Shown: in pieces, positions 4,087 to 22,971 of the stretch | Position numbering within the stretch: the first letter of the stretch is position 1 | Layout: every line of letters starts with the position of its first letter | Source: Salinigranum rubrum | GTDB taxonomy: Archaea > Halobacteriota > Halobacteria > Halobacteriales > Haloferacaceae | Reading direction: 5' to 3' | Length of the DNA stretch: 64,000 nt | Assembly: GCF_002906575.1 (NCBI RefSeq) | Contig: NZ_CP026309.1 | Span: 2,232,001-2,296,000, forward strand | Notes under the pieces: generated by a model | Databases searched by the model: none | The model's input: the letters and a program-made list of their open reading frames with translations, nothing else | Told to the model about the DNA's origin: nothing | Translations under genes and position numbers: made by a program

Positions 4087-4683
4087 ATGACGAGCGACGC
4101 CACAGTACGCGTACGAGATGGCTCCCCCGGGAACCGAGACAGGAACGAGCACGGCCAGTTCGCCGACCGCATCCCGCCGGAGGAGGCGCTCGCGGTGTTC
4201 GAGGCACGCGAGGACCGTGCCCGTCCAGTGACGGCCGGCGACGTCGCCGACGCGCTCGACTGTTCGCGGCGGACGGCGCACAACAAGCTGGGCGAACTCA
4301 CCGACCGGGGCGTCGTCCGAACGCGGAAGGTCGGCGCGCGCAGTCGTGTCTGGTGGATACCGATCGAAGGCGACGACGCGGAGGCGCCCGACCCGTCCCG
4401 CAGTCACGCGGTCACGGACGCGGCCCACGACGCCGAACTGCCGGGCACCGGGGAGATTCTCGAACGGCGTCGACGGGCCCTCCTCGCGGCGTACGACTAC
4501 CTGAGCGAGCATCCGGAGGCGAAGAAAGCGGACTTCCTGCGCGACGTCTTCCCCGAGCACCGCGCGGAGTTCGAGTCGGCGGAGGGGTGGTGGAACGCGA
4601 TACAGCCCGCGCTGCGCGAACTCCCCGGTGTCGACCCGCCGAAGGAGCGCGGGCACATCTGGCACTACCTCGGCGGGGACTGA
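4087..4683 (+). CDS. Two-domain winged-helix (HTH) regulator, haloarchaeal type
   Basis: 198 residues from the ATG at 4087. Residues ~20-85 form a winged helix: NEHGQFADRIPPEEALAVF followed by VTAGDVADALDCSRRTAHNKL (recognition helix) and a GVVRTRKVGARSRVWW wing. A second domain (~118-198, from EILERRRRALLAAYDYL to GHIWHYLG) has the helix-rich pattern often attached to this HTH type in haloarchaeal accessory and provirus genes. It probably binds DNA; targets are unknown. It precedes the Nramp-like operon by 152 bp in the same direction and is the obvious candidate local regulator. An upstream in-frame start near 4027 exists, but the ATG with the conserved core is preferred. Confidence 0.75.
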   Translation: MTSDATVRVRDGSPGNRDRNEHGQFADRIPPEEALAVFEAREDRARPVTAGDVADALDCSRRTAHNKLGELTDRGVVRTRKVGARSRVWWIPIEGDDAEAPDPSRSHAVTDAAHDAELPGTGEILERRRRALLAAYDYLSEHPEAKKADFLRDVFPEHRAEFESAEGWWNAIQPALRELPGVDPPKERGHIWHYLGGD

Positions 4684-4835: not shown

Positions 4836-6542
4836 ATGGACTCACGAGAACCGCCCGGCGACGCCGCCGACGACGACGAGCCCGACGTCTACGCGTCCGA
4901 GGTCGAAGGCCGCCAGTACCGCGGAACGTCGTACATGCCGATGCCGTACGACGACCTCACCGAGGCACCCGACGCGGACGAGTACCCCGACCGCGGCGAG
5001 GGCGGGTCGTTCAAGCTCCTCGATCTCCCCCGCGTACCGAAGCTGAGCCACGTCGTCGGCCCCTCGGCCATCATGCTCGGGGCGAGTCTCGGGAGCGGCG
5101 AGACGGTCTTCTGGCCCATCCTCATCGCGCAGGGCGGGTGGGCGCTCTACTGGGCGTTCTGGATCGGCGTCCTCACCCAGTTCTTCGTCAACACGGAGCT
5201 CCAGCGCTGGACCGTCGCCACGGGCGAGAGCGTCTTCCGAGCGTTCGACCGCGTGAGTCGGTTCTGGCCGCTGTTCTTTCTGCTCGCGGGGTTCGTGAGC
5301 CTCGGCTGGCCCGGATGGGCGGCCGGCGCCGCGCAGGTCGGGGCGTGGGCCGTCGGGATCGGTGACTGGAAACCGCTCGGTATCGGGCTCATGCTGCTCA
5401 TCTTCGTCTCCTACCAGCTTTCGCCCGTCATGTACAACGTCGTCGAGGGCGCCCAGTTCGTCCTCGTCGTCGTCTCGGTCCTCTGTGCGGTCGCGCTCGC
5501 GGTCGTGACCGGGTCGACGGACCAGCTCGCGAACCTCCCGGCCGGCGCCCTCTCTCTCGGGACGATTCCCGCGGGGACGGACCTCGCGGTCTTCCTCGGC
5601 GGCCTCGCGTTCGCCGGCGCGGGCGGCTACCTCAACCTCTCGCAGTCGCTGTGGGTCCGCGAGAAGGGCTACGGCATGGGCAACTACCAGGGTCGGCTGA
5701 AGAACCCGCTCATCGGCGACGAACCCGAGCCCGTTCAGGAAGACGGGTTCACGTTCGAGCCGACGGAGGAGAACCTCCTCCGCTGGCGGGGGTGGTGGCG
5801 GGTCGTCCAGCTCGAACACCTCCTGACGTTCGTCGTCGGCCTGCTCGTCGTGGCGACGGTGTTGATGACGGTCGCCGCGAAGTTCGCGGCCGGGACGAGC
5901 GTCGAAGGCATCGACATGTGGCTCCAGGTCGTCGTCCCCCAGTTGTCCGGGGCGGGCGCGGCGCTCGTCCCGCTCGTGCTGTTCGTCGCGCTCTTCACCA
6001 CCGAGTACGCCATCGTCGAGTCGTTCGTCCGCAACAGCGCCGACATCGTCTACGAGACCCACGGCCGGCAGGCCGGCTGGTCGCTGCCGACCATCTTCCT
6101 CGTCACCCTCACGGCCTTCACCCTCTGGGGCGTCGTCATCATCCTCCTCCCCTTCGAGCAGCCGTTCTTCCTGCTCGTCGTCGGCGCGGCGATGTCGGGC
6201 GTGATGATGTGGCCCTACATCGCGCTCACGCTCGTCATCAACACCACCCGGCTCCCCGCTCACCTCCAGCCCGGTTGGATCCGCGTCGTGGCGATGTGGT
6301 GGGCGACGGGCTTCTTCGGCTACTTCAGCACGCTCCTCGTCGGACGGACGCTCGCGCGGGACTTCGGCGTCGCCGTCTTCGCGACGGCCCCCGAAATCGT
6401 CGGAAGCGCCCCCGGTGGCTACGTGCTCTGGCTCGGCTACCTCGTCGTGCAGACGTACACGGTCGCGGTGAGCCTCCGCGCGAAACGACGCGGCGCCGAG
6501 GGTTTCCACGGAGCCGAAGTCGACCGCGGGTGGCTCTCGTGA
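4836..6542 (+). CDS. Nramp-related transporter lacking the classical metal-binding motifs
   Basis: 568 residues: an acidic, proline-rich soluble N-terminus of ~75 residues, then about 11 hydrophobic helices. The first helix reads GPSAIMLGASLGSGETVFWP, where the canonical Nramp DPGN motif is replaced by LGSGE. The helix corresponding to Nramp TM6 (GGLAFAGAGGYLNLSQSLW) has no MPH motif. Nramp-related proteins of this kind are usually annotated as divalent metal transporters, but the metal ligands (Asp/Asn and Met) are not evident, so the substrate is open. The stop overlaps the GTG start of the next gene (GTGA), indicating translational coupling. The ATG at 4836 was chosen because the preceding in-frame sequence is not conserved-looking. 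Family fairly sure; substrate unknown. Confidence 0.75.
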   Translation: MDSREPPGDAADDDEPDVYASEVEGRQYRGTSYMPMPYDDLTEAPDADEYPDRGEGGSFKLLDLPRVPKLSHVVGPSAIMLGASLGSGETVFWPILIAQGGWALYWAFWIGVLTQFFVNTELQRWTVATGESVFRAFDRVSRFWPLFFLLAGFVSLGWPGWAAGAAQVGAWAVGIGDWKPLGIGLMLLIFVSYQLSPVMYNVVEGAQFVLVVVSVLCAVALAVVTGSTDQLANLPAGALSLGTIPAGTDLAVFLGGLAFAGAGGYLNLSQSLWVREKGYGMGNYQGRLKNPLIGDEPEPVQEDGFTFEPTEENLLRWRGWWRVVQLEHLLTFVVGLLVVATVLMTVAAKFAAGTSVEGIDMWLQVVVPQLSGAGAALVPLVLFVALFTTEYAIVESFVRNSADIVYETHGRQAGWSLPTIFLVTLTAFTLWGVVIILLPFEQPFFLLVVGAAMSGVMMWPYIALTLVINTTRLPAHLQPGWIRVVAMWWATGFFGYFSTLLVGRTLARDFGVAVFATAPEIVGSAPGGYVLWLGYLVVQTYTVAVSLRAKRRGAEGFHGAEVDRGWLS

Positions 6543-6898
6543 CCGAGAGGGAAGACCGTGCCGCCGGTACGGTCGAACGGCTGTTCGCCTCCCTCGCCGC
6601 CCGCCGGTACCCGATTTACCTCGGCGGACTGGGCGTCGTCGTCCTCGTCAGGGCGTTCGCTCCGACGTGGACGCGGACGCCCGTGTTCGTCCTCGCTCTC
6701 ACCCTCATGTGTACCACCTACCTCGCGGAACTCCACGGACGCGCCGAGACGGAGACACGGACGCTGGTGGTCGCCCTCGCCGTCGCGGGCGTCGCCGTCG
6801 GCGCGTTCGTCGTCGCCGAGGTGAACCCCGTCGGTGGCTTCCTGTTCGTCCTCGGCGGACTCTTCTTCTTCCGCGCCGCGACACGGAGGAGGACGTGA
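6539..6898 (+). CDS. Small membrane protein coupled to Nramp-like transporter
   Basis: 119 residues starting at a GTG that overlaps the transporter stop by four bases. It has a charged N-terminus (MTEREDRAAG) and then three to four hydrophobic segments (YPIYLGGLGVVVLVRAF, TPVFVLALTLMCTTYLAE, LVVALAVAGVAVGAFVVAE and GGFLFVLGGLFFF), ending in basic residues. No catalytic motif or known family was recognised. Position and overlap on both sides suggest it is made in step with the transporter, perhaps as an accessory subunit; that is inference only. Confidence 0.7.
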   Translation: MTEREDRAAGTVERLFASLAARRYPIYLGGLGVVVLVRAFAPTWTRTPVFVLALTLMCTTYLAELHGRAETETRTLVVALAVAGVAVGAFVVAEVNPVGGFLFVLGGLFFFRAATRRRT

Positions 6899-7356
6899 CA
6901 GACACCGACGCCGGCGCGACCGACACCGCTCGCGTTCGCGTCCACTACGGCATGGCGGGGTCGGTCCCGCTCCAACTGTACGAGTTCGTCTTCGAACCCG
7001 CGGGCTGTTACGTGCTCGACTGCGGGGCGTTCACGCCGCTGTTCGGCCTCACGACCGGGAGACACACCCGACGGGCGGCGGCCCTCGACACGGTGTACGA
7101 CGAGCAGGGCCTCGACGGCCTGCTCGCCGTCGCCGACACGACCACGTGGCTCGCCTGGGAGACCGTCGCGCGCGTCGCGCTCCACGACGGCGGTCGGTTC
7201 ACCCGGCCGAAACTGACGGTCGAGACGCGTGGCGAGGCTCCCTCCCGAAGCGTCCGTCTCCACGGCGTCGACACCGCGTCGCTCGCCGACTCTCTGCGCG
7301 CCGTCGTCGGCGACTCGGTCCGGTTCGACCACGTGGAGTCGACGGGGTTGTTCTGA
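6895..7356 (+). CDS. Conserved haloarchaeal protein of unknown function, third gene of transporter operon
   Basis: 153 residues beginning at a GTG that overlaps the previous stop by four bases. It is soluble and mostly predicted beta strand: LQLYEFVFEPAGCYVLDCG near the N-terminus, a central helix (RRAAALDTVYDEQGLDGLLAV), then ETVARVALHDGG and KLTVETRG strands and a final helix (TASLADSLRAVVG). The alternation resembles a small PH-like or barrel fold, but no family is recognised with certainty. Two cysteines (C39 and C43 region) are close together. It may modulate the transporter encoded just upstream; this is inferred from the overlapping gene order. Confidence 0.65.
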   Translation: MTDTDAGATDTARVRVHYGMAGSVPLQLYEFVFEPAGCYVLDCGAFTPLFGLTTGRHTRRAAALDTVYDEQGLDGLLAVADTTTWLAWETVARVALHDGGRFTRPKLTVETRGEAPSRSVRLHGVDTASLADSLRAVVGDSVRFDHVESTGLF

Positions 7357-7423: not shown

Positions 7424-7720
7424 CTACCGCCGCGGGTGTCGCACCTGTATCCACGCGACGACCGACTTCGGGTAGCGCTCGGTCCGCTCCCCCGCGAACG
7501 AGCCGTCGGTGCTGACGACGAACGCCTCCCGCTCGTATCGAACGAACGCCTCGTCGTGGTGGACGGCTTCGCCGTCGCGGGTCCGGAGGTCGACGCTCCC
7601 GCGACGGACAGGTGTCTCGAACGAGTTCGCGTCCGGCGTCGTGCCCGTGTCCACACCGTCGTCCGGCGTCGCGTTCACGTCATCGCCGTCGTCTCTGTCG
7701 CCTCCGCCGTCGTCCGCCAC
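7424..7720 (-). CDS. Small acidic conserved haloarchaeal protein
   Basis: 98 residues from a GTG start three bases past the stop of the FAD/Fe-S dehydrogenase, so it is read as the next gene of that transcript. The first ~35 residues are a disordered Asp/Gly-rich tail (MADDGGGDRDDGDD); the rest is a compact domain with strands SVDLRTRDGEAVHHDEAFVRY, EAFVVSTDG and a C-terminal YPKSVVAWIQVRH. No motif was recognised. Coupling to the lactate dehydrogenase suggests a linked role, but nothing in the sequence says what. An alternative start inside the acidic tail is possible. Confidence 0.6.
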   Translation of the reverse strand: MADDGGGDRDDGDDVNATPDDGVDTGTTPDANSFETPVRRGSVDLRTRDGEAVHHDEAFVRYEREAFVVSTDGSFAGERTERYPKSVVAWIQVRHPRR

Positions 7721-7723
7721 GAG

Positions 7724-10700
7724 TCAGGCGACGACGGCCGCCAGCTTCTCGACCGGGTGGGGCGGCTCCTCGCCCTCGTGGTCGCCGAGTTGTGACCGAC
7801 AGGAGGCGCCGGGCGCGACCACCGTGTCGCCGTCGCTCGCGTCCACCTGGTCGTAGAGGATGGAGGCGATGGCCTTCGACATCGAGTAGTGTTCGGCCTC
7901 GTAGCCGAACGAGCCAGCCATCCCACAGCAGGTCGAGTCGAGCGGGTCGACGTCGTACCCGACCCGTCCCAGCACCGACACGGTGTGGTGGTCCTTGTTC
8001 GTCGACTTCTGGTGGCAGTGGCCGTGGTACGTCAGCGACTCCTCCCTCCGCTGGAACTCGCGGTCGCCGAACAGGTCGAACGTGTCGACGTACTCCATCA
8101 CGCCGTAGCTGTTCGCGGCGAACGTCTCCACCTCGGGTCCCGAGAGCAAGTCGAGGTAGTCCGACTGGAACATCACGGCGTCGGACGGTTCGACGACGAC
8201 GACGTCCCAGCCCGCTTCGACGTTCGGAACCAGCGTCTCGACGTTCTGCTCGGCCTCGGCGCGCGCCCTGTCGAGGAAGCCCTTCGAGTGTGGCGGGCGA
8301 CCGCTGCCGGCGACGTCGTCGGGAATCCGAACGTGGACGCCGGCGGCTTCGAGCGCCCGCACCGCGGCCTTCCCCGCTTCGGGGTGGTTGTAGGTGGTGT
8401 AGGTGTCGGGGAAGAGCAGGGCTCGACGGACCGCCTCGCTCTCGTCGACGGTCGACCCGCCGCGCGCCTCGAACCACTCGGTCAGGGACTGGGAGGCGAA
8501 CGAGGGCAGCGTCCGCTCGGAGGCGATGCCCAGCGTCTTCTCCATGACCCACCCCGACCCCGGGAGTTTCGTCGCGAGGTTCGACAGCGGAGCGAGCGAA
8601 CTGCCCACGCTGGAGAGGCTGTCGATGTTGGCGAACATCCTGTCTCTGAGACTCGAACCGTTGCGCTGGTGGTACTCGTGGGTCACCTCGGCTTTCATCT
8701 TCGCCATGTCGACCTCGCTCGGACAGTCCTTGGTACAGCCCTTACAGCCGATACAGAGGTCGAGCACCTCGTGGACGAACTCGTCGGTGAACATCTCCTC
8801 CTCGTCGAACGACCCGGACATCGCCTGCCGGAGCATGTTCGCCCGGCCGCGGGTGGACTGTATCTCCTCTTCGGCCGCGCGGAACGTGGGACACATCACG
8901 CCGCCGGTCGTCTCCTGTGGCCCACGACAGCCCGCACAGCCGTGACAGAGTTCGGCCATCCCCTGGAAGCCGTTGTCGTTGTCCCAGTTCAGCGACGGCT
9001 CGAACCCCTCCTCGAACTCGTAATCCGGGGAGAACCGGAGGTGTTCGGTCATGTCGTGGTCGCCGCAGATGTTTCCGGGGTTGAGGAGCCAGTCGGGGTC
9101 GTACGCGGACTTCAGGTCCCGAAACACCCCCCAGAGGTGGTCGCCGTAGAGCTTCCGGTTCCACTGGGTCCGGGCGCGGCCGTCGCCGTGCTCGCCCGAG
9201 ACGCTGCCGCCGTACTTCACGACGAGGTCCGTCACCTCGTCCGCGATGGCCTCGAACGTCTCCAGCCCCTCGACCGTCTTGGTGTTGACGAGCGGCCGGA
9301 TGTGCAACACCCCGGGGCCGGCGTGGGCGTAGTAGCTCGCGAACGTGTCGTGCTTCTCGAGGATGTCCTGGAAGTCGGAGACGTACGCCGGGAGGTTCTC
9401 CGCGGGGATGGCGGTGTCCTCGATGTAGGCGATGTGCTTCTCGTCCGTGGTCCGCCCGAGCAGGATGGGGAGGCCGGACTTGCGCATCTTCCAGAACTTC
9501 GCGCGCGTCTCCGCGTCGTGAGCTTCCATCGACCCGACCGCCGTGTGTGGCTTGTCGGTCGTCTCCACGGCAGCCACGGAGGGTTCGACCTGGCTGTCTC
9601 CGTCGGTGACCCGGTCGGCGATGAGGTCTGCGACCTGCTCTTTACCGTGCTGGTCGTCATCGGCGTAGAACTCCACGAGCAAGACGGCGCTCGTCCCCTC
9701 GGGGAGCATCCCGACGACGCCGCGGAACTCCGCGGTCTCTCGGGCGAGGTCGAGGAGGACGTCGTCCATCACCTCGACGGCCGCCGGGTCGTGTTCGAGG
9801 ATGGGCGCGACGTCCTCCATCGCGTCGACGACGCTGTCGTAGGTGAGGAGGGCGACGCTCGCCGTGTTCGGGATGGGTTCGAGCGAGACGGTCGCCTCGG
9901 TGACGATGGCTAACGTCCCCTCGCTCCCCGCGAGCAGGCGGGCGAGGTTGACCGTGCCCGCCTCCGCATCCGGGTCGAGTCCCTTGTCGTCGGGCGTCCG
10001 TCGCTCGCCTCGGGCCTCGTCGACGAGCATGTCGAGGTTGTACCCCGAGACGTTCCGCTTGAGTTCGGGGTACCGCTCTTCGACCTCCTCTGCCTCCTCG
10101 TCGAGGATGCGGACCACCTGGGCGTACACCCGGGGGAGTATGTCGTCGCTGTCGGGGTCGGCGCGGGCGCGGAGTTCCTCGACCTCGACCTCGCCGAAGC
10201 GTTCGACGCTCCCGTCGGCGAGGACGGCCTCACACTCCTCGATGTAGTAGTCGGTCTTGCCGTACTTCAGCGAGTGCGCGCCGGTGGAGTTGTTGCCGAT
10301 GGCCCCGCCGAGCGCGCTCTTGTCGCCCCAGGCGGGGTCGGGCGCGAACTTCAGCCCGTGCGGTTTCAACTCGCGGTTGAGGTCGCCGAGGTACGTCCCG
10401 GCCTCCGCCCGGGCCGTCGCCGCGTCGGGGTCGACGTCCACGACCGAGTCCATGTAGCGCGTGAAGTCGAGGACGACCGCCTCGTTCACGGTCTGTCCCG
10501 CCAGCGACGTGCCGCCGCCGCGGGGGAGGACGGGAATCTCACGGCGAGCGCAGTACTGCACCACCGCGGCGACGTCGTCGGTCGACGTCGGCATCACCAC
10601 GCCGATGGGCGTCCGTTCGTACGCGGACGCGTCGGTCGCGTACAGTTCCCTCGTGTAGGTGTCGAAGCGAACGTCGCCGTCGACCAGTCCTTCGAGGTCG

Positions 10701-10804
10701 TCGACGAGCGCCGGGCGGGCGACGTCGTCCGAGACGTAGTCGAAGTTCGCCCCGTCACGTGGGTCGTCGGCCCGCGACCCCAGGTCGTCCGTGTTGCTTG
10801 CCAT
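7724..10804 (-). CDS. FAD-linked oxidase / Fe-S / CCG-domain fusion (D-lactate or glycolate dehydrogenase type)
   Basis: 1026 residues combining GlcD- and GlcF-like parts. The N-terminal FAD-binding (PCMH) domain includes PTSTDDVAAVVQYC (~70) and the PRGGGTSLAGQ loop (~95-105). An FAD-oxidase C domain follows to about residue 560. The Fe-S region has CHGCAGCRG (~618) with a later Cys, and CIGCKGCTKDCP (~682). The C-terminal CCG domain has YHGHCHQK and STCCGMAGSFGYEAEHY (~956). Such fusions oxidise D-lactate or glycolate and pass electrons to the membrane quinone pool. The permease upstream and the lut genes nearby favour D-lactate. A small acidic gene follows after 3 bp. Its Fe-S/CCG module closely resembles that of the LutB fusion at 13861-16083. 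Confidence 0.88.
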   Translation of the reverse strand: MASNTDDLGSRADDPRDGANFDYVSDDVARPALVDDLEGLVDGDVRFDTYTRELYATDASAYERTPIGVVMPTSTDDVAAVVQYCARREIPVLPRGGGTSLAGQTVNEAVVLDFTRYMDSVVDVDPDAATARAEAGTYLGDLNRELKPHGLKFAPDPAWGDKSALGGAIGNNSTGAHSLKYGKTDYYIEECEAVLADGSVERFGEVEVEELRARADPDSDDILPRVYAQVVRILDEEAEEVEERYPELKRNVSGYNLDMLVDEARGERRTPDDKGLDPDAEAGTVNLARLLAGSEGTLAIVTEATVSLEPIPNTASVALLTYDSVVDAMEDVAPILEHDPAAVEVMDDVLLDLARETAEFRGVVGMLPEGTSAVLLVEFYADDDQHGKEQVADLIADRVTDGDSQVEPSVAAVETTDKPHTAVGSMEAHDAETRAKFWKMRKSGLPILLGRTTDEKHIAYIEDTAIPAENLPAYVSDFQDILEKHDTFASYYAHAGPGVLHIRPLVNTKTVEGLETFEAIADEVTDLVVKYGGSVSGEHGDGRARTQWNRKLYGDHLWGVFRDLKSAYDPDWLLNPGNICGDHDMTEHLRFSPDYEFEEGFEPSLNWDNDNGFQGMAELCHGCAGCRGPQETTGGVMCPTFRAAEEEIQSTRGRANMLRQAMSGSFDEEEMFTDEFVHEVLDLCIGCKGCTKDCPSEVDMAKMKAEVTHEYHQRNGSSLRDRMFANIDSLSSVGSSLAPLSNLATKLPGSGWVMEKTLGIASERTLPSFASQSLTEWFEARGGSTVDESEAVRRALLFPDTYTTYNHPEAGKAAVRALEAAGVHVRIPDDVAGSGRPPHSKGFLDRARAEAEQNVETLVPNVEAGWDVVVVEPSDAVMFQSDYLDLLSGPEVETFAANSYGVMEYVDTFDLFGDREFQRREESLTYHGHCHQKSTNKDHHTVSVLGRVGYDVDPLDSTCCGMAGSFGYEAEHYSMSKAIASILYDQVDASDGDTVVAPGASCRSQLGDHEGEEPPHPVEKLAAVVA

Positions 10805-10992
10805 TGATAGTCAGTCCTTTGAGTCGTCGCTAATAAAATCCGGAGGTTACGCCGTCCGGAGGCGTCGTCGACTGGCGATTCTCCTGCGCCCCTCGAACCG
10901 GGATCGGTGTCACGAGGGCTGTCGGACGCCCGTCCCGGATGTCGCCGACACCGGGGGCGGCGACTCCCGGGAGACGGGGACGACGGACCCCG
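10805..10992. other. Spacer between dehydrogenase fusion and lactate permease
   Basis: 188 bp without a convincing gene. Both flanking genes are read on the minus strand, so this is the region just before the dehydrogenase start and after the permease stop. An AT-richer patch (TAATAAAATCCGG on the plus strand, around 10830-10843) lies about 30 bp upstream of the dehydrogenase ATG and could supply its TATA box on the minus strand (TTTTATTA), placing transcription start near the ATG. The dehydrogenase may therefore have its own promoter. Confidence 0.45.
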
Positions 10993-12726
10993 TCAGAAGA
11001 CGCCCGGGAAGAGGACGTAGCTGAACAGCAGCGTCACGAGGCCGGTGGCGGTCCCGTAGTAGACGAGCGGGATGAGTTCCAGCCGGATGACGCGACCCTC
11101 CTCGCCGACGAGGCCGACGACGGCCAGCGCCGCGACGACGTTGTGGATGGCGATGAGGTTGCCGATGGCGCCGCCGACGGCCTGTGCGGCCAGCATCAGC
11201 GTCCGCGGCGTCCCGATCTGGTCGGCGACGCCGTACTGGAACGTGCCGAAGAGGATGTCCGACACGGTGTTCGACCCGGCGAGGAACGCCCCGAACGCGC
11301 CGACGTACGCGGCGAAGAACGGGTAGACGCCGCCCGCGACCGAGGCCATGCCGTCCGAGAGGACGATGAGCATGCTGTCGGTCCCCGTCGCGGAGCCCGA
11401 CTGCAGCATGATCTGGACCGTCGCCACCGCGAACAGCAGGGCGACGACCGCGGGCATCACCTTCTCGACCGTCTCGGACCACGCCGCCGTGATCTCGTCG
11501 GTCCGCATGTCGTGCAGCGGGATGGTGAGCAGGTGGACCGCGACGAACACCGCCCCCGGCAGGTAGAGGACGGCGAAACTGTCGCTCAGTCCCGTCCCGA
11601 GGATGTCGGTCCACGCGAGCGTGAACAGGTCCATCGTGACGAACGCGTTCACGGGGTCGACGACGCGGGTGACGACGAGGAGAACGGCGACGAGCGCGTA
11701 GGGCGTCCACGCCTTCCACAGCGGCATCCGGACGTGCCCGCCGTCGGCCGTCACCGTCCCCTCGCGGGAGGTGCCCGCGCCGACGCCGCCCTCGCCGGGC
11801 TGGATGTCGCCGACCCAGTGGTCGGGCCACTGCTCCTGAGGCGCGAAGTCCCACTCGTCGTCGGGGTGGAAGAAGCCGGCCTTCAGCGCACCGACGGTGA
11901 CGAACAGGCCGACCATCGCCCCGATGAGGCCGGGGAACTCCGGCCCGAGGAAGTACGCCGTGAGCCAGTACGGGACCGAGAAGGAGGCCCACGCGAACAG
12001 CGTGAGCGGGAGGACCTCCAGCGCGGGCTTGATCGAGCGTTCCTCGCCGAAGAAGCGGGTCATCATCGCCACGCCGATGAAGGGCAGTGCGACGCCGACG
12101 ATGACGTGGTACGTCGCGGCCCACATCGCAATGTCGCCGACCCACGCGGCGACGCTCGCGTACGGGCCGTTCGCGACCACCGCGGTCTGGATGCTCTCGA
12201 CGGAGCCGAAGATGTCGATCATCCCGATGATGAGCGGCGTCCCGACCGCGCCGAACGTGATGGCCATCAGGTTCCCCGTGAGCGCGACGACGACGGCCGC
12301 CATCGGCGGGAAACCGAGCCCCACGAGGAGCGGACCGACGATGGCCGCGGGCGTCCCGAAGCCGGCCGCGGCCTCGATGAACGACCCCATCAAGAATACG
12401 AGCAGGACGACCTGAACGCGGCGGTCCTCGCTCACGGAGGCGAAGCCCTGATTGATGGCGTCGAAGGCGCCCGTGCGTTTCAGCGTGTAGAGGAGGAGGA
12501 TGGCGCCGAAGACGATGTAGAGGATGTTCGCGGCGGTGATAAAGCCGACAATCGACGACGCGGCGATCCACCGCGCGGACATTCCCCAGCCGACGACGCC
12601 CGCGCCGACCGCGACGAGCCAGGCGACGGGCATCGCCCGCGTCGCGGGCCAGTACCGGCCGACCATCAGGAACGCGATGGTCGCCAGCGGCGCGAGCGCG
12701 ACGAGCGCGTCCACGGCGCTAACCAT
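10993..12726 (-). CDS. lctP: L-lactate permease family transporter
   Basis: 577 residues, hydrophobic throughout with roughly 12-14 membrane helices. The family pattern is clear in [20 protein letters not shown] near residues 65-85, and in [26 protein letters not shown] and [18 protein letters not shown], the conserved GFGTP and GTP segments of the LctP/LldP lactate permeases. A cytoplasmic loop ([20 protein letters not shown]) separates the halves. It imports lactate or glycolate with protons. A GTG at 12735 is in frame, but the ATG at 12726 is preferred. Upstream are a TATA-like element and a 9-bp inverted repeat. It precedes the dehydrogenase fusion on the same strand and diverges from the lut genes. 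Confidence 0.88.
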
Positions 12727-12764
12727 CGGTCTCACCTCGGTCGATACGTCTCGAACCGCCCCGA

Positions 12765-12802
12765 ACCATGCCAGTGCTGTGCTCGATGCCTCGTGGCATG
12801 GT
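12765..12802 (-). promoter_or_regulatory. 9-bp inverted repeat in permease leader
   Basis: ACCATGCCA at 12765-12773 is mirrored exactly by TGGCATGGT at 12794-12802, with 20 bp between. It lies 39-76 bp upstream of the permease ATG and starts right where transcription should begin if the TATA-like element at 12825-12833 is used. It may be a repressor operator covering the start site or a stem-loop in the mRNA leader. The repeat is observed directly; its function is inferred. Confidence 0.5.
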
Positions 12803-12824
12803 CGAGTGGAGCCGAGTCTGTCAT

Positions 12825-12833
12825 GATATATCT
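12825..12833 (-). promoter_or_regulatory. TATA-like element for lactate permease
   Basis: Read on the minus strand this is AGATATATC, the most AT-rich site upstream of the permease. Transcription would start about 25 bp downstream, near 12800, giving a leader of about 75 nt that contains the inverted repeat at 12765-12802. Confidence 0.45.
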
Positions 12834-13012
12834 ATCGCTTCTCCCCCGATTGCGAGAACTCGGACGGTCAGCGGCGGACCTCTCTCGATACCTGTTCGTT
12901 CGAGTGTTGTGGATAACATGCCTCAGAGACCGGCTCAAAACCGTTATTCTCTGCTGCAGTAATTCTCACGGCGTCGGCGACGACGCACGTCAGCCGCTAC
13001 CGGCGTCCCTCT

Positions 13013-13067
13013 ACACACGTGTGTTCTATCCAGTGTACACGTGTATACACGCCTCTATACACGTGTG
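13013..13067. promoter_or_regulatory. Three ACACGTGT palindromes at 22-bp spacing (candidate operator array)
   Basis: Three copies of the palindrome ACACGTGT occur at 13015-13022, 13037-13044 and 13059-13066, centre to centre exactly 22 bp apart (two helical turns). Copy one extends to the 12-bp palindrome ACACACGTGTGT and copy two to TACACGTGTA. The array ends 6 bp before a TATTTAA box (13073-13079) on the plus strand, the usual place for an activator site in archaea. It sits mid-way between the divergent lactate permease and lutC, so it could control either or both. The regulator is not encoded in the neighbourhood. Confidence 0.65.
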
Positions 13068-13072
13068 AACAG

Positions 13073-13144
13073 TATTTAATCACTCTAAACGACGAGCTGA
13101 AAGGGAGTCTAAACGGCGAGAAGAGCGTATTTCGACCTATTTCG
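13073..13144 (+). promoter_or_regulatory. TATA box and two sets of direct repeats upstream of lutC
   Basis: TATTTAA at 13073-13079 follows the palindrome array. Downstream are a 13-bp direct repeat TCTAAACGRCGAG (13084-13096 and 13108-13120, 24 bp apart, one mismatch) and a 7-bp repeat TATTTCG (13128-13134 and 13138-13144, one helical turn apart). The lutC ATG is about 260 bp further on, so transcription from this TATA would have a long leader. No gene was found between 12727 and 13364 on either strand. RBS-like GGTGA precedes the lutC ATG. Confidence 0.5.
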
Positions 13145-13364
13145 GCGCGTTATCCGTGGACGGACGGTGCCACGTGGCCGTCGACGCCAGCGCGCGGGCG
13201 TCTCACGGACCGCGAGCGCGTTCGAAACCCGGGTCGCGCGCGTCCGATACGTCGGGTCGTCCGCGCTCCTCCTGTCGGTTTTCGTCGCCGTTCGGGGCCG
13301 GTCGTGACCCGGCGATGGACGGCCGAAAGCAAAGAAACTTGAAACCCCTGTCGTAAGGTGACAC

Positions 13365-13868
13365 ATGGCGACTGGCACGGTCACGACGTTCGAGGCGTCA
13401 CTGGACCGCCTCGACGTCGACTGGACGCATACGACGCACGACGGGTTGGCGGACGTTCTCCGGGAGGTGTCGACGGAGCCGGCGGTGGGCACGCCGCTCC
13501 CGTTCGACGTCTCCCTGCCCGCGTGGGTGAACACGGAGCCGACCCCGGACGAACTGGAGACGGCGACGACGGGTATCACCGCCGCCGGACTCGGTATCGC
13601 GGACTACGGGAGCGTCGTCCTCCCGTCGACGCCCGAGGGGACCGAACCGGTGTCGCTCTTCCCCGACCTCCACGTCGCCGTCCTCCGGACCGGGGACGTC
13701 GTTCCGGGGATGGCCGAGGCGTTCGACTTCCTGGGTGAGGAGTTCCGCGACGGCACCCACTCGTCGGCGATTATCGCGACCGGTCCGAGCGCGACGGCCG
13801 ACATGGGGGCGCTGGTGAAGGGTGCACACGGCCCGAAAGACGTCCACGTGGTGATGCTCGATGAGTAA
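13365..13868 (+). CDS. lutC: LUD-domain protein, LutC-like lactate utilisation subunit
   Basis: 167 residues forming one LUD domain. Signature pieces are a beta strand and helix ending in ITAAGLGIADYGSVVLPSTPEG, the LFPDLHVAVLRTGDVVPGMAEAF core and TGPSATADMGALVKGAHGPKDVHVVML, the typical LUD C-terminal segment. In Bacillus, LutC works with LutA and LutB to oxidise L-lactate to pyruvate through Fe-S proteins. The start has a GGTGA sequence 6 nt upstream. Its last codons overlap the start of the LutB fusion (13861) by 8 bp, showing translational coupling. No oddity in length for archaeal LutC. Confidence 0.88.
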   Translation: MATGTVTTFEASLDRLDVDWTHTTHDGLADVLREVSTEPAVGTPLPFDVSLPAWVNTEPTPDELETATTGITAAGLGIADYGSVVLPSTPEGTEPVSLFPDLHVAVLRTGDVVPGMAEAFDFLGEEFRDGTHSSAIIATGPSATADMGALVKGAHGPKDVHVVMLDE

Positions 13869-16083
13869 GAGCACGTCCCGAGAGGCGAAGGCCGCACGCA
13901 TCCGCTATCTCCTCGAAACCGAGGGCGACGCGGTCAAAGCCAACACGAAGGGCTTCAATCAGGGCCGGTACGACTCCGTCGCGAAACTGGAGTCGTACGA
14001 GGAACTCCGCGCCCGTGCCCGCGAAATAAAAGCGGACGCCATCGACCGCCTGCCGGAACTCCTCGACCGGGTGGAAGCGACGGTCGAGGCCAACGGCGGC
14101 ACGGTCTACTTCGCCGACGACGCCGCGGACGCCAACCGCTACGTCCGGGAGGTCTGCCGGGACAAGGAGGCCGAGCGCGTCGTGAAGTCGAAGTCGATGA
14201 CCTCCGAGGAAATCGAGGTGAACGAGTTCTTGGAGGAAGACGGCGTGGACGTCGTCGAGACAGACCTCGGCGAGTGGGTGTTGCAGGTCGCCGACGAGGC
14301 CCCCTCCCACATCGTCGCCCCTGCCATCCACAAGTCCCGCGAGGGCATCGCAGAGCTGTTCAACGAGACGTTCCAGCCCGAAGAGAAACTCGAAACCGCG
14401 GAGGAACTGACGATGTTCGCCCGCGAGCGACTGCTCGAAGAGATCAAAGGCGCGGACGTCGGCATGACCGGGGCGAACTTCATCACCGCCGACACCGGGA
14501 CCCTGGCGCTCGTCACGAGCGAGGGCAACGCCCGGAAGTCGGCGGTGGTTCCGGACACCCACGTCGCCGTCGCGGGCGTCGAGAAGGTGGTTCCCTCGGT
14601 CGAAAGCCTCCAGCCGTTCGTCGAACTCATCGGTCGTTCCGGGACGGGACAGGACATCACCTCGTACATCTCGCTGCTGACGCCGCCCGTCGAGTCGCCG
14701 GTCGTCGACTTCGACGCGTCCGACACGCCGCTCGCGAGCGGAGAGAACGACCGCGACTTCCACCTCGTCCTCATCGACAACGGCCGGATGGCGATGCGCG
14801 AGGACAGCGAGTTGAAAGAGACGCTGTACTGCATCCGGTGTTCGGCGTGTTCGAACGTCTGTGCGAACTTCCAGTCGGTGGGAGGGCACGGCTTCGGCGG
14901 CGAGACGTACTCGGGGGGAATCGCCACCGGGTGGGAGGCCGGCATCGAAGGGCTCGACACGGCCGCGGAGTTCAACGACCTCTGTACGGGCTGTTCGCGC
15001 TGTGTCGACGCCTGCCCCGTCAACATCGACATCCCGTGGATCAACACGGTCGTGAGGGATAGAATCAACCGCGGGACCGACCACGAGTTCGACTGGCTCG
15101 TCGACGGGCTGACCCCCGACGCCGAGGAGGGAGGGCTCAGCCTGCAGAAGCGGTTCTTCGGCAACTTCTCGACGGTGGCGACGGTCGGCAGCGCCCTCGC
15201 GCCGCTGTCGAACTGGGTCGCCGGGACCGACCTCTCCCGGCGGCTGATGGAGTCGACCATCGGCGTCGACGCCCGCCGCGACCTCCCGTCGTTCGAGCGG
15301 GAGACGCTCGTCGACTGGTTCGCGGCACGGGGGCCGCGGGTCTCACCGACCGAGGCCGAGCGCGAGGCCGTCGTCTACCCCGACGTCTACACCAACCACG
15401 CGATGGTCGAGCGCGGGAAGGCCGCCGTGCGGGCGCTCGAAGCGCTCGGCGTCCACGTCCGCGTCCCCGACCTCCCCGCGTCGGGCCGCGCGCCGCTCTC
15501 GCAGGGGATGATCACGACGGCCGAGGAGAAGGCCCACGCCCTCTACGCCGCGCTCGCGGAACACATCGACGCCGAGCGCGACGTCGTCGTCATCGAACCG
15601 TCGGACCTCGCGATGTTCGACCGCGAGTACGGGAAGTTCCTCGCCCCGAGGTCCCAGGAGCGGCTCTCGGATGCGAGCTACGAGGTGATGGAGTACGTCT
15701 ACGGTCTGCTGGAGAACGGCGGCGACCCGAAAACGCTCCGCGCTCCCGGCGCGAACGACAGCGGGGTCGCGTACCACTCACACTGCCAGCAACGAACCCT
15801 GGGGCTGGAAGGCTACACGGAAGCGGTCCTCGACCGTCTCGGCTACGACGTCGCCACCTCGGAGGTCGAGTGCTGTGGGATGGCCGGGTCGTTCGGCTAC
15901 AAGTCCGAGTACTACGAACTCTCGATGGACGTCGGGAGCGAACTCGAAGCGCAGTTCTCCACGCCGGAGACGCGCGAGCGCCGCGTCGTCGCCTCCGGGA
16001 CGTCGTGTCTGGAACAGCTCGACTCGATGTTGGCACGACCGTCACAGCATCCGGTCGAACTCGTCGCGCCCGAGCGGCTCTGA
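13861..16083 (+). CDS. lutB: LutB-type LUD/Fe-S protein fused to LutA-like CCG domain
   Basis: 740 residues. The LUD domain spans roughly 60-310 (for example VGMTGANFITADTGTLALVTSEGN at ~200-223). Two Fe-S cysteine groups follow: CIRCSACSNVC (324-334) and CTGCSRCVDACP (375-386). The C-terminal part is a CCG domain with HSHCQQRT (~640) and VECCGMAGSFGYKSEYY (~671), a function done by separate LutA in bacteria. It should oxidise L-lactate with LutC and deliver electrons to the respiratory chain. The tail after the Fe-S clusters matches the tail of the FAD dehydrogenase at 7724-10804 segment by segment. The next gene begins 73 bp downstream. Confidence 0.88.
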   Translation: MSKSTSREAKAARIRYLLETEGDAVKANTKGFNQGRYDSVAKLESYEELRARAREIKADAIDRLPELLDRVEATVEANGGTVYFADDAADANRYVREVCRDKEAERVVKSKSMTSEEIEVNEFLEEDGVDVVETDLGEWVLQVADEAPSHIVAPAIHKSREGIAELFNETFQPEEKLETAEELTMFARERLLEEIKGADVGMTGANFITADTGTLALVTSEGNARKSAVVPDTHVAVAGVEKVVPSVESLQPFVELIGRSGTGQDITSYISLLTPPVESPVVDFDASDTPLASGENDRDFHLVLIDNGRMAMREDSELKETLYCIRCSACSNVCANFQSVGGHGFGGETYSGGIATGWEAGIEGLDTAAEFNDLCTGCSRCVDACPVNIDIPWINTVVRDRINRGTDHEFDWLVDGLTPDAEEGGLSLQKRFFGNFSTVATVGSALAPLSNWVAGTDLSRRLMESTIGVDARRDLPSFERETLVDWFAARGPRVSPTEAEREAVVYPDVYTNHAMVERGKAAVRALEALGVHVRVPDLPASGRAPLSQGMITTAEEKAHALYAALAEHIDAERDVVVIEPSDLAMFDREYGKFLAPRSQERLSDASYEVMEYVYGLLENGGDPKTLRAPGANDSGVAYHSHCQQRTLGLEGYTEAVLDRLGYDVATSEVECCGMAGSFGYKSEYYELSMDVGSELEAQFSTPETRERRVVASGTSCLEQLDSMLARPSQHPVELVAPERL

Positions 16084-19995: not shown

Positions 19996-20166
19996 GAGAT
20001 CTGATTATTTTCGTAACACAAGGTACTTATGTAAATGGGTGCAGTTCTGACACGTACCCCTACCCAGGTGGCAGCAGCGAGTATGCGTGATCGCCGCACG
20101 CCGCGCGAATTCACGCGAGAAAGGTGTTGTCCCCGATTGCGGTTGCGATTGCGACCCTCCGAAACT

Positions 20167-22971
20167 ATGTCAGACACAAATAACAAGATTCGCGCTGTTG
20201 TGCTTGCGGCGCTGATGGTCCTCTCCGTCTTTGCGGGGACCATCGCGTTCGCGGGTACAGCGAGTGCGACCCTCAACCCCGGCAACAGCAGTATCTCTCC
20301 GACTACTGTTGATGCGGGAACGACCAACACGCACACGTTCGTAGTAGAGTTCGACGCAGACACGAGTGACACCACTCCTGCTGTCGTCAACATCTCGATG
20401 CCTAGCGGCACCGACCTCTCGTCGCCCAGCGTCACGGGCGCGAGTGTTGACGCCGGTTCCGCCTCGTTCACCGACAGCGATGTCTCCGTGAACGACGGGC
20501 AGGACTACATCAACCTCACCGTCGCCGACAACAGTGGTTCTATCGGTGACACCGTCCGAGTCAGCTTCGATGCCGACGTCGGGGCGCCGTCTGCAACGGG
20601 TAACTTCCCCGTGACCGCCGACGTCGACTCGAACAACGACGGTACTCTCGAGACTGACGGTGGAACGGTCGACACGCTCACGCTCGAGAGCTCCAGCCGC
20701 ACCATCAACAACGGTGGTACGGTCTACCTCGGTGAGAGCGACGTCGACCTGACGCAGATCAGTGGTGTCTCCGCCGGTAGTTCGGCTACCTTCACGGGTG
20801 TCAGCGGCGACGCCGACGGTTCGACGGCGTCCGTTGGCGACCCGCTCGCCGCCGACATCACGGAAGCGAACAACTTCGAGACCGGCGGCTACAACACCTC
20901 GGGTAACTCCGACGGCACCGCCAACTTCTTCGTCGTTGAACCGCAGGTCACTGACCTGACGATCTACTCCGGCGCCGGTACGGGTGGCGCGGACGTCACG
21001 GACGGTTCGATCGTCACCGACACGGACACCATCACCGTCGAGGCCGACTGGAACTTCGACGAGGCCGAGAACGTCTCGATCACCATCGAGGACGAGGACG
21101 GCCTCGAGGTCCAGTCGCAGCTCACCTCGAACACCGGTCTCCTCGAGATCGGTGAGTCCGGTGGCAACGTCGAACTCTCGGACGTCACCGACCTCGACAC
21201 GGGCGAGTACACCGTCACGGTCGAGGGCGAGGACGACCTCGACGGCGCGTCGCGCAGCGCGACGTTCACCATCCGCGACGAATCGCAGAGCATCTCGCTG
21301 GGCCAGTCGAGCGCCACGCAGGGCGACAACGTCGTCGCCACGGTCACCGGCACGCCCGGAACGTACGGTCTCCTCCGCATCGAGCAGGGTGACACCGACG
21401 ACCTCGAAGCTGGCGACGCGAACGCGAGCCAGGTCTTCGCCAACACCGGCGACGTCCAGGGCCGCTTCGGCACTGACGACCTCGCTGGCGACCAGGACGA
21501 GGACTACGTCGGCGCTGTCGTCGACATGGACGACGAAGGTGAAGCGCAGGTCCGTATCCAGACGGACAGCCTCGACACGACGACGCTCGACGTCGAGTTC
21601 GTCGAGATGGACAGCGCGGACACCAACCCCGGCACGCTCCAGACAGCGTTCAACGCGAGCGCTGACGACTCCGCGGAGCTGACGGTCGAAGAGCAGTCGA
21701 TCAACATCTCGTCCGCCCCGAGCGTCGTCCGCATCGGTGAGGAGTTCACCATCGAGGGAACTGCCGCCGAGTCGGACGAGGTGAAGGCGTACGCGCGCAT
21801 CGACCAGAACTACGTCCCGCTCGTTGACGAGGACGGCGACTGGGCCGAGGACGACGTCGACTCGAACGGCGAGTTCTCGCTCGACATCGACTCGAGCAGC
21901 AACATCAGCCTGCCCGACTCGTACCGCATCGCGGTCGTCGCTGACCCCGTCGACGACGACGGCACGAACTACCTGAGCGCAGGTAACCAGGACAACGAGA
22001 TCGACTCGGACACCTACAGCGAGTTCGACACGAAGACGACGACGACCGTCCGCACCGTCGAGGGCGACCTCACGGCACAGGTCTCGTCGCAGAGCATCGC
22101 CGCGAACGTCGGTGACGAGGTCACGCTGTCGGGCACCGCGCTCGGCCAGGGTGACTCGGTCCGCGTCTACCTGATCGGTCCGCGCGGGAACTTCCTCGAC
22201 GCCAGCGGGGCCTCGCAGGCCGCCGAGGAGATCGACATCGACGAGGAAGAGTTCGAAGAGGACTACGCCGCGTTCAGTAACCGCGGTCAGTACACGTTCA
22301 TCGTCGTCGGCCAGGGCCGCGACGGTGACTACGCGTCTGACTACGGCTTCGGTGGCGACGCCCTGCAGTCGGACCTCACGCCGCAGCAGGCAGTCGCGAT
22401 CGTCAACGACGAGTACACGGGTGCTGGCGTTGACGACCAGATCGTCGAAATGACCGTCTCTGCGGAGAACCCGCAGCTCTCGATCGACGACTTCACCACG
22501 AACGGTGAGGTCGCCCAGGGCGAGGTCACCGTCTCGGGTACCTCGAACCGCGAGGACGGCACGACCGTCTTCATCGAGGTCCTCGGCCAGAACGAGAACG
22601 TGATCGCCTCGGACGAGGCTGAGGTCAACGGTTCGACCGGCGAATGGTCGACCACGATCGACATGTCGGACGTCGAGACGGGCACGTACACGCTGCGTGC
22701 TGACGACGACGAGGCTTCGGCCTCGCTCGAGTTCGAGCTCGTCGAGTCGGTGAGCACGCCGACCGAGGAGCCGACGCCGACCGAAGAACCGTCGACTGAC
22801 GAGCCGACGCCGACCGAAGAGCCGACGACCGACGAATCGACGCCGACCGAAGAGCCGACGACCGACGAATCGACGCCGACTGAGACGTCCACGTCGACGC
22901 CCGGCTTCGGTGTCATCGTCGCGCTCATCGCGCTCATCGCCGCGGCGCTGGTCGCAGTCCGTCGCGACTAA
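20167..22971 (+). CDS. csg: S-layer glycoprotein with PGF-CTERM sorting tail
   Basis: 934 residues. The N-terminus MSDTNNKIRAVVLAALMVLS...GTASA is the TIGR04207-type surface glycoprotein signal, with predicted cleavage after residue 34. The mature part is very acidic, beta-rich and carries many N-x-S/T sequons (for example NISM, NLTV, NVSI, NASQ, NISS, NISL). Near the C-terminus is a Thr/Glu/Pro stalk suited to O-glycosylation, then TPGFGVIVALIALIAAALVAVRRD-like PGF-CTERM tripartite tail, processed by archaeosortase A with lipid anchoring. It forms the two-dimensional cell wall lattice. Codon third positions and local composition are slightly less GC-biased than in neighbours, as usual for a highly expressed gene. 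A hairpin terminator follows. Confidence 0.92.
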   Translation: MSDTNNKIRAVVLAALMVLSVFAGTIAFAGTASATLNPGNSSISPTTVDAGTTNTHTFVVEFDADTSDTTPAVVNISMPSGTDLSSPSVTGASVDAGSASFTDSDVSVNDGQDYINLTVADNSGSIGDTVRVSFDADVGAPSATGNFPVTADVDSNNDGTLETDGGTVDTLTLESSSRTINNGGTVYLGESDVDLTQISGVSAGSSATFTGVSGDADGSTASVGDPLAADITEANNFETGGYNTSGNSDGTANFFVVEPQVTDLTIYSGAGTGGADVTDGSIVTDTDTITVEADWNFDEAENVSITIEDEDGLEVQSQLTSNTGLLEIGESGGNVELSDVTDLDTGEYTVTVEGEDDLDGASRSATFTIRDESQSISLGQSSATQGDNVVATVTGTPGTYGLLRIEQGDTDDLEAGDANASQVFANTGDVQGRFGTDDLAGDQDEDYVGAVVDMDDEGEAQVRIQTDSLDTTTLDVEFVEMDSADTNPGTLQTAFNASADDSAELTVEEQSINISSAPSVVRIGEEFTIEGTAAESDEVKAYARIDQNYVPLVDEDGDWAEDDVDSNGEFSLDIDSSSNISLPDSYRIAVVADPVDDDGTNYLSAGNQDNEIDSDTYSEFDTKTTTTVRTVEGDLTAQVSSQSIAANVGDEVTLSGTALGQGDSVRVYLIGPRGNFLDASGASQAAEEIDIDEEEFEEDYAAFSNRGQYTFIVVGQGRDGDYASDYGFGGDALQSDLTPQQAVAIVNDEYTGAGVDDQIVEMTVSAENPQLSIDDFTTNGEVAQGEVTVSGTSNREDGTTVFIEVLGQNENVIASDEAEVNGSTGEWSTTIDMSDVETGTYTLRADDDEASASLEFELVESVSTPTEEPTPTEEPSTDEPTPTEEPTTDESTPTEEPTTDESTPTETSTSTPGFGVIVALIALIAAALVAVRRD
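22805..22870 (+). repeat. 33-bp perfect tandem duplication in S-layer stalk
   Basis: The 33-bp unit beginning CGACGCCGACCG occurs at 22805-22837 and again, without a change, at 22838-22870. It encodes an 11-residue TPTEEPTTDES unit in the stalk next to the membrane tail. Partial units flank it on both sides. Identity at the DNA level indicates a recent in-frame duplication and a stalk length that can vary by slippage or recombination. Confidence 0.85.

Follow-up and report, generated by a model that had tools for sequence, protein, structure and literature searches.

A GSGE-type relative of Nramp beside lactate-utilisation genes in Salinigranum rubrum and other haloarchaea: a probable 2-hydroxyacid carrier with optional partner proteins

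The window analysed here, a stretch of 64,000 nucleotides from Salinigranum rubrum (contig NZ_CP026309.1, positions 2,232,001 to 2,296,000), carries a gene for an Nramp-related transporter (here T), followed by genes for a small membrane protein (M) and a soluble protein (S) and preceded by a regulator gene (R). This T-M-S locus adjoins a lactate-utilisation island made up of dld-type, lctP and LUD genes (7724-16083; Table 1). T is related to Nramp and lies outside the canonical Nramps. In our favoured reading it is a LeuT-fold carrier of an uncharacterised GSGE branch, which probably imports a 2-hydroxy-monocarboxylate, most likely D-lactate, while M and S serve as accessories that can be absent. 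What we infer is the substrate of T, its direction and coupling ion, and the roles of R, M and S. The island, which had escaped a preliminary description of the locus, supplies a specific class of substrate.

The first transmembrane helix of T (TM1) contains GPSAIMLGASLGSGETVFWP and the sixth (TM6) FLGGLAFAGAGGYLNLSQSLW. When T is aligned with two Nramps that carry DPGN and MPH (L089 and L103), GSGE sits on the DPGN columns, and in TM6 no equivalent of MPH is found, AGAGGYLN standing there instead; the same absence of the usual metal site had been read from the letters of T in the preliminary description. An independent HMMER alignment of a Rubrobacter homologue (P0006) with human DMT1 again puts GSGE on DPGN, and bacterial homologues with 31-33% identity have GSGE, SSGE or ASGE in TM1 and GAGG-x2-NL-x-QS in TM6. 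The change from Asp, Asn, Met and His to Gly-Ser-Gly-Glu and Gly-Ala-Gly-Gly implies that metal ligands are removed and backbone groups remain, a pattern that we take to be reminiscent of APC amino-acid transporters.

The predicted structure of T (pLDDT 88.3, pTM 0.90) is a full LeuT fold with the TM6 helix break at its usual place. Its best structural matches are Nramps, with NRAMP1 (9f6q; Z 33.4, 427 residues, rmsd 3.3) and DraNramp (8e5s; Z 31.5, 380 residues, rmsd 2.9) ahead of EleNRMT (7qia; Z 29.4, 375 residues, rmsd 3.1) and an integrative model of YcsG (9a52; Z 28.9, 398 residues, rmsd 3.3); amino-acid transporters rank below the Nramp structures (Z 24.2 and lower). T thus shares the LeuT fold of canonical Nramp/SLC11 proteins such as DraNramp, NRAMP1 and DMT1, but has neither DPGN nor MPH, is only 12-14% identical in aligned residues (9f6q, 8e5s) and sits on a far branch of the tree. 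The NRMTs, represented by EleNRMT, are also Nramp-related and similar in fold; their Mg2+ site is DxxG-TxxA/T, according to the available part of PMC8806188, whereas T has GSGE in TM1 and AGAGG in TM6, with no Asp, and does not fit that pattern. A profile search of solved-structure sequences with T, S and M gave no useful match.

Family models treat T unevenly. NCBIfam NF037982 (Nramp_1) takes it over model positions 1-404 of 404 with a score of 283.5 bits (cut-off 50) and also accepts DPGN Nramps (L089), so that it does not define a substrate. Pfam PF01566 (Nramp) gives no match to T at E values up to 1 and matches one of 42 relatives at E up to 0.01. In a tree of 34 proteins, the haloarchaeal, non-halophile and bacterial relatives of T form one clade (100/100) far from the two DPGN Nramps, the tree having long branches that leave the deeper order of groups unsure. 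Tree and alignment both keep T away from metal-transporting Nramps with conserved ligands, a placement that the preliminary description had named as fatal to its proposal of a new substrate. That proposal gains support from the missing metal site, the position of T outside the two canonical Nramps and the gene context, and our results suggest that automatic annotation mislabels the T branch as 'Nramp family divalent metal transporter'. As a separate observation, the sole PF01566 match in the genome of S. rubrum itself (L001/L002, C1:2955884-2956905) is broken into two reading frames, which a frameshift or a sequencing error may explain, and DPGN is absent from the pieces read.

A search of 195 genomes of the order returned 24 with a strong T and five more with only a weak relative (~25% identity). 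The window and the surroundings of the other 23 strong T loci served as the test set, and a link was scored where a dld, lctP or lut gene with an identity of 45% or higher across a minimum of 150 aa lay near T. By this rule dld, lctP or lut genes surround T in 19 of the 24 T-bearing genomes. Of 40 random stretches of 18 kb, taken at preset positions in T-bearing genomes, none satisfies the rule, and three hold weak lactate-gene matches (29-37% identity). The Fisher p value is 5e-12 (9/13 and p 2e-7 by genus); since the loci are related, these values are not strict probabilities. The dld family is present in 190 of the 195 genomes, with one to six matches each, so that mere presence in one genome says little and it is proximity to T that matters.

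A second, overlapping set consists of the window and 33 loci from named genomes (L056-L088), in which T is found again at 54-83% identity, the closest being that of Salinigranum salinum (83%). Among these 34 loci, 26 have dld, 12 LctP (one a 58-aa fragment) and nine lutC, and L087 has lutC/lutAB with a piece of lctP. Seven loci remain (L061, L068, L069, L073, L077, L081 and L082). A D-2-hydroxyacid dehydrogenase gene lies beside T in L068 and L077, which give no dld match, and in L074, which also holds a dld stretch (42% over 467 aa); in L061 the neighbour is a malic enzyme gene. The arrangement differs from clade to clade: dld precedes T (M-S) on one strand in L064-L067, L070, L071, L079 and L080; the two stand tail to tail in the window, L056, L075, L078 and L122; a divergent lctP-dld pair with T followed by lutC-lutAB is found in L057, L058, L062, L063 and L085; and in L076 dld lies 3' of T. 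Such variation in order and strand implies that the nearness survived, or was formed anew, through several rearrangements. In Haloferax volcanii the lactate genes are HVO_1692/1693 and 1696/1697 (PMC8305020). For this reason HVO_1694 was considered as a T gene; it was dropped because HVO_1695 is described as a putative iron-sulfur protein (PMC11349517), which makes the layout a different one.

Two further gene groups were seen at these loci. In L056, L059, L061, L082, L084, L123 and L125 an ABC cassette of the branched-chain-amino-acid type, which includes a solute-binding protein, is divergent from R-T, and this cassette upstream of R may carry a related substrate. A glyoxalase-superfamily (VOC) gene stands beside dld in the R-less loci L064, L066, L067, L070, L071 and L079, where conversion of methylglyoxal to D-lactate would fit.

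The theme of 2-hydroxyacids returns outside the haloarchaea. Two ~2-Mb genomes of non-halophiles (L155 and L156, loci of 40-44% GC) encode a T that is 40-42% identical; in both, T adjoins a MOFRL/DUF4147 gene, which we take to be of the glycerate 2-kinase type, and S is convergent with T. L155 also has two D-2-hydroxyacid dehydrogenases near T, and L156 has a GlcD-type oxidase, an Fe-S protein and a LUD protein there. The Rubrobacter homologue (31%) is convergent with lutCBA and near a lactate-racemase-domain protein, and an Aureimonas homologue has isocitrate lyase one gene away; a Deinococcus relative has no neighbour of lactate or hydroxyacid type, and the Nonomuraea locus, being without annotation, was left unassigned. 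Three of the weak haloarchaeal relatives (~25%; L151, L152 and L154) have LutC/LutAB 5-7 kb away, and the other two (L150 and L153) have no LutC/LutAB nearby. The enzymes that recur across clades share 2-hydroxyacids, mostly of the D form, which points to a substrate class, and the lost metal ligands together with the neighbouring genes indicate a small carboxylate.

In Nramps, TM1 and TM6 of the LeuT fold are each partly unwound and the substrate is held between these segments, according to a 2026 phylogeny (PMC12873925). In T, which would have given up the metal site, the unwound TM1 (GSGE) and TM6 (GAGG-x2-N) may form the walls of a pocket that accepts a small organic acid. The protein would import a 2-hydroxy-monocarboxylate, D-lactate fitting best in the window, and glycolate or D-glycerate in some relatives, which the adjoining FAD/Fe-S dehydrogenase would then oxidise; this dld-type protein consists of fused GlcD and GlcF domains and is D-lactate-dehydrogenase-like. 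D-lactate production by halophilic archaeal communities is the subject of a reference cited in PMC12175516, so the compound should be present in such brines. LctP and the LutABC-type genes of the island could handle lactate in parallel, for example the L form. R would control T, and S (cytosolic, PH-like) and M (in the membrane) may accompany T and perhaps serve to tune or anchor it.

Several points weigh against this. The rule finds no link in five of the 24 genomes, namely L140, L143, L147, L149 and L134, in the last of which the contig breaks off 54 aa into dld, and one genus supplies eight of the 24. Of two further distant copies in genome G320, L157 has just a TctA gene in its vicinity, and no recognised carboxylate gene lies near L158. 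The island already has LctP, a lactate permease whose job is the one proposed for T but which is encoded by a separate gene and belongs to its own Pfam family, so that a second lactate carrier could be redundant. HVO_1697, the H. volcanii relative of the FAD/Fe-S enzyme, was called unclear (PMC8305020), and the exact substrate of the haloarchaeal enzyme is unproven. By our own assessment the case is one of gene context, and Mn2+ has been implicated for other distant Nramp relatives that are encoded in metabolic operons: YcsG was renamed MntG on genetic evidence for Mn2+ import (PMC10448178), MumT raises cellular Mn (PMC5050338), and both are encoded in nitrogen-metabolism operons (PMC10448178, PMC5050338).

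These Mn2+ precedents also speak for a different role, the chief rival to our reading though one which we consider unlikely, namely that T still imports a divalent metal through a changed site and supplies Fe or Mn for the Fe-S enzymes of the island and for metabolism. The NF037982 label is that of a divalent metal transporter, metal Nramps are the nearest folds of T, the enzymes adjoining T carry Fe-S domains, and a Roseomonas GSGE-type relative lies within a siderophore-type cluster. T, however, is without the DPGN and MPH ligands; some of its partners (the D-2-hydroxyacid dehydrogenases and the glycerate-kinase-type protein) have no Fe-S domain; and the 2-hydroxyacid theme appears again in Rubrobacter and in non-halophile archaea. 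Furthermore, PxpT of Corynebacterium glutamicum, an Nramp-family protein 50% identical to YcsG, is needed for growth on 5-oxoproline and so offers a precedent for the favoured reading, its authors stating that a metal role could not be excluded (PMC13274462). YcsG/MntG, which a 2026 preprint places in a 'G-motif 3' group (PMC12873925), and PxpT resemble T in being Nramp-related and encoded in carboxylate-metabolism operons, kinship to T being compared by fold only; they differ in that they adjoin 5-oxoprolinase genes and that partners such as M and S are not described for them in the portions of these sources at hand.

It is rather improbable that T works as an exporter, of lactate or pyruvate overflow, or carries another organic solute, such as a sugar acid or keto acid that merely feeds the lactate genes. 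The window already has an uptake carrier in LctP, and GSGE relatives stand beside UxaA-type dehydratase genes (Rubrobacter P0006, L151), PdxA/acid-sugar-kinase genes (Streptomyces), mannonate dehydratase (Halocatena) and 3-oxoacid CoA-transferase (Mesobacillus), but the partners of the T clade itself are dld, LUD, LctP or D-2-hydroxyacid dehydrogenase, the sugar-acid partners belonging to more distant branches. GSGE proteins on plasmids (12 records, of which the contexts of eight were examined, together with Rubrobacter and Deinococcus, for suggestive use only) have mixed surroundings, with sugar- or keto-acid genes in Streptomyces, Halocatena, Mesobacillus and Rubrobacter, and no clear theme in Azospirillum, two Skermanella, Microscilla and Deinococcus. 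The distant GSGE proteins near sugar-acid genes can be seen as suggesting sugar-acid carriers. Altronate/galactarate dehydratase-type, PdxA/acid-sugar-kinase or mannonate dehydratase genes were recorded beside L120 2563-3984 (Rubrobacter), L151, L206 and L208.

Turning to the partner proteins, the T/M and M/S junctions both read GTGA, which bears out the four-base stop/start overlaps of the preliminary description, and R, the HTH gene that it had placed before T, gives winged-HTH matches, with Pfam HTH_20 barely above its cut-off. T, M, S and R are all present again in other haloarchaea, and the recurrence of T in 33 loci and of S in 22 of the 195 genomes argues that they are not chance reading frames. 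Among the 34 loci, presence beside T is nested: all have T, 26 have S, 22 have M (always with S) and 17 have R, directly 5' of T, which makes T the core and M dependent on S. S occurs without M in L061, L075, L078 and L081, and the Haloferax and Halobellus loci have neither. Haloarcula hispanica carries T and S, and Haloferax gibbonsii carries T. In L080 neither partner adjoins T, and the matching genome (G133) has S on another contig; in the other 21 of the 22 genomes with S, all of which have a strong T, S is beside T. The preliminary description had named frequent absence of the partners as a refutation, and the gaps in these counts tell against it in part: the data support a core of T to which S and M may be added, an obligate three-protein complex being unsupported. 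A fixed three-gene complex was rejected on the nested counts (S 26/34, M 22/34, R 17/34). It is very improbable that T, instead of being a main carrier, is a sensor (transceptor) or regulatory subunit by which LctP or the dehydrogenase is gated together with R, M and S. T and LctP do occur together in 12 of the 34 loci (one LctP being the fragment), and T is joined to a regulator in half of them and to the soluble PH-like protein in most; but there are loci in which T lacks both M and S (Haloferax), others that lack R and others that lack LctP, and the model of T is a full LeuT fold with the TM6 break where usual.

S had been put down as a protein of unknown fold, yet its model (pLDDT 91.3) comes out PH/PTB-like: it has seven strands, the third of which is followed by an inserted helix, and ends in a C-terminal helix. 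The best match is to PH-type domains (Z 8.9, 98 residues, rmsd 2.8, a modest match), and the fold matches listed are mostly of PH/PTB type (Foldseek E 1.2e-3, again modest and without sequence support). The seven strands and C-terminal helix recall PH-superfold proteins such as FACT SSRP1/Pob3, FERM F3 and bacterial PH domains, from which S differs by the helix after strand 3 and by an identity of 2-12% among the matches listed. A Pfam PH domain was found in none of 35 S members scanned, and S falls in no Pfam family; we thus call S PH-like on a modest match of predicted folds, as a likeness and not as a claim of family membership. M reaches 19.5 bits with Pfam DUF456, under the gathering cut-off of 29.4, one of 26 members matches, and no Pfam family lies above cut-off.

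According to the 2026 phylogeny, only two of the Nramp-related groups have been characterised at all (PMC12873925). The locus described here offers a concrete substrate class for one Nramp-related branch, in culturable and genetically tractable archaea. The fold and the superfamily of T were known; the substrate class, which is probable, and two undescribed partner families are new. A literature search, with most subscription journals and preprints outside its coverage, found no proposal of an Nramp-related carrier of lactate or 2-hydroxyacids. If true, the favoured reading of T as a 2-hydroxyacid importer would show how metal-transport and carboxylate-transport scaffolds interconvert, and M and S, two protein families without Pfam entries, become candidate transporter subunits. 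More tentatively, and with some doubt, the whole archaeal and bacterial GSGE branch, annotated as metal transporters, might be carriers of hydroxy- and sugar-acids, those of haloarchaea and some non-halophile archaea having gained S as a dedicated PH-like cytosolic subunit and, in part of them, M as a membrane subunit. They would then be the first transporter of Nramp fold with more than one subunit, and one with a link to the oxidation of D-2-hydroxyacids.

Table 1. Positions in the window of the T-M-S locus and of the adjoining genes
Gene	Position	Strand	Description
R	4087-4683	+	198 aa; winged-HTH regulator gene 5' of T
T	4836-6542	+	ATG start, 568 aa; Nramp-related LeuT-fold transporter
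M	6539-6898	+	GTG start, 119 aa; small membrane protein
S	6895-7356	+	GTG start, 153 aa; soluble, predicted PH/PTB-like fold
U	7424-7720	-	98 aa; convergent with S
dld-type gene	7724-10804	-	1026 aa; FAD_binding_4, FAD-oxidase_C, 4Fe-4S and CCG
lctP	10993-12735	-	L-lactate permease family, Pfam Lactate_perm
lutC-like gene	13365-13868	+	LUD domain
lutAB-like gene	13861-16083	+	740 aa; 77%-identical relative in L057 with LUD and 4Fe-4S domains

A scan for sigma-70 promoters and terminators gave no signal exceeding shuffled sequence. The palindrome GGTGTCGTAGCGACACC directly 5' of T in the window was tried as an operator and dropped, as it is not found in the closest relative (L056).

U belongs to a cluster present in 14 of the 34 loci. 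Its relative from a plasmid of Haladaptatus bears the annotation CFI-box-CTERM protein, and the U of the window has no CFI tail. In Haladaptatus (G190) a plasmid carries a further M-S-U set that lacks T. M-S-U without T was observed in L203 7430-9036 (Haladaptatus halobius plasmid NZ_CP085337) and in L162, where it adjoins a VOC gene and FetB-type genes, T-M-S being on another replicon of the same genome. Finally, positions 20035-22971 (+) of the window encode a 978-aa secreted protein with a PGF-CTERM-like tail, which by eye we would liken to a haloarchaeal S-layer glycoprotein.

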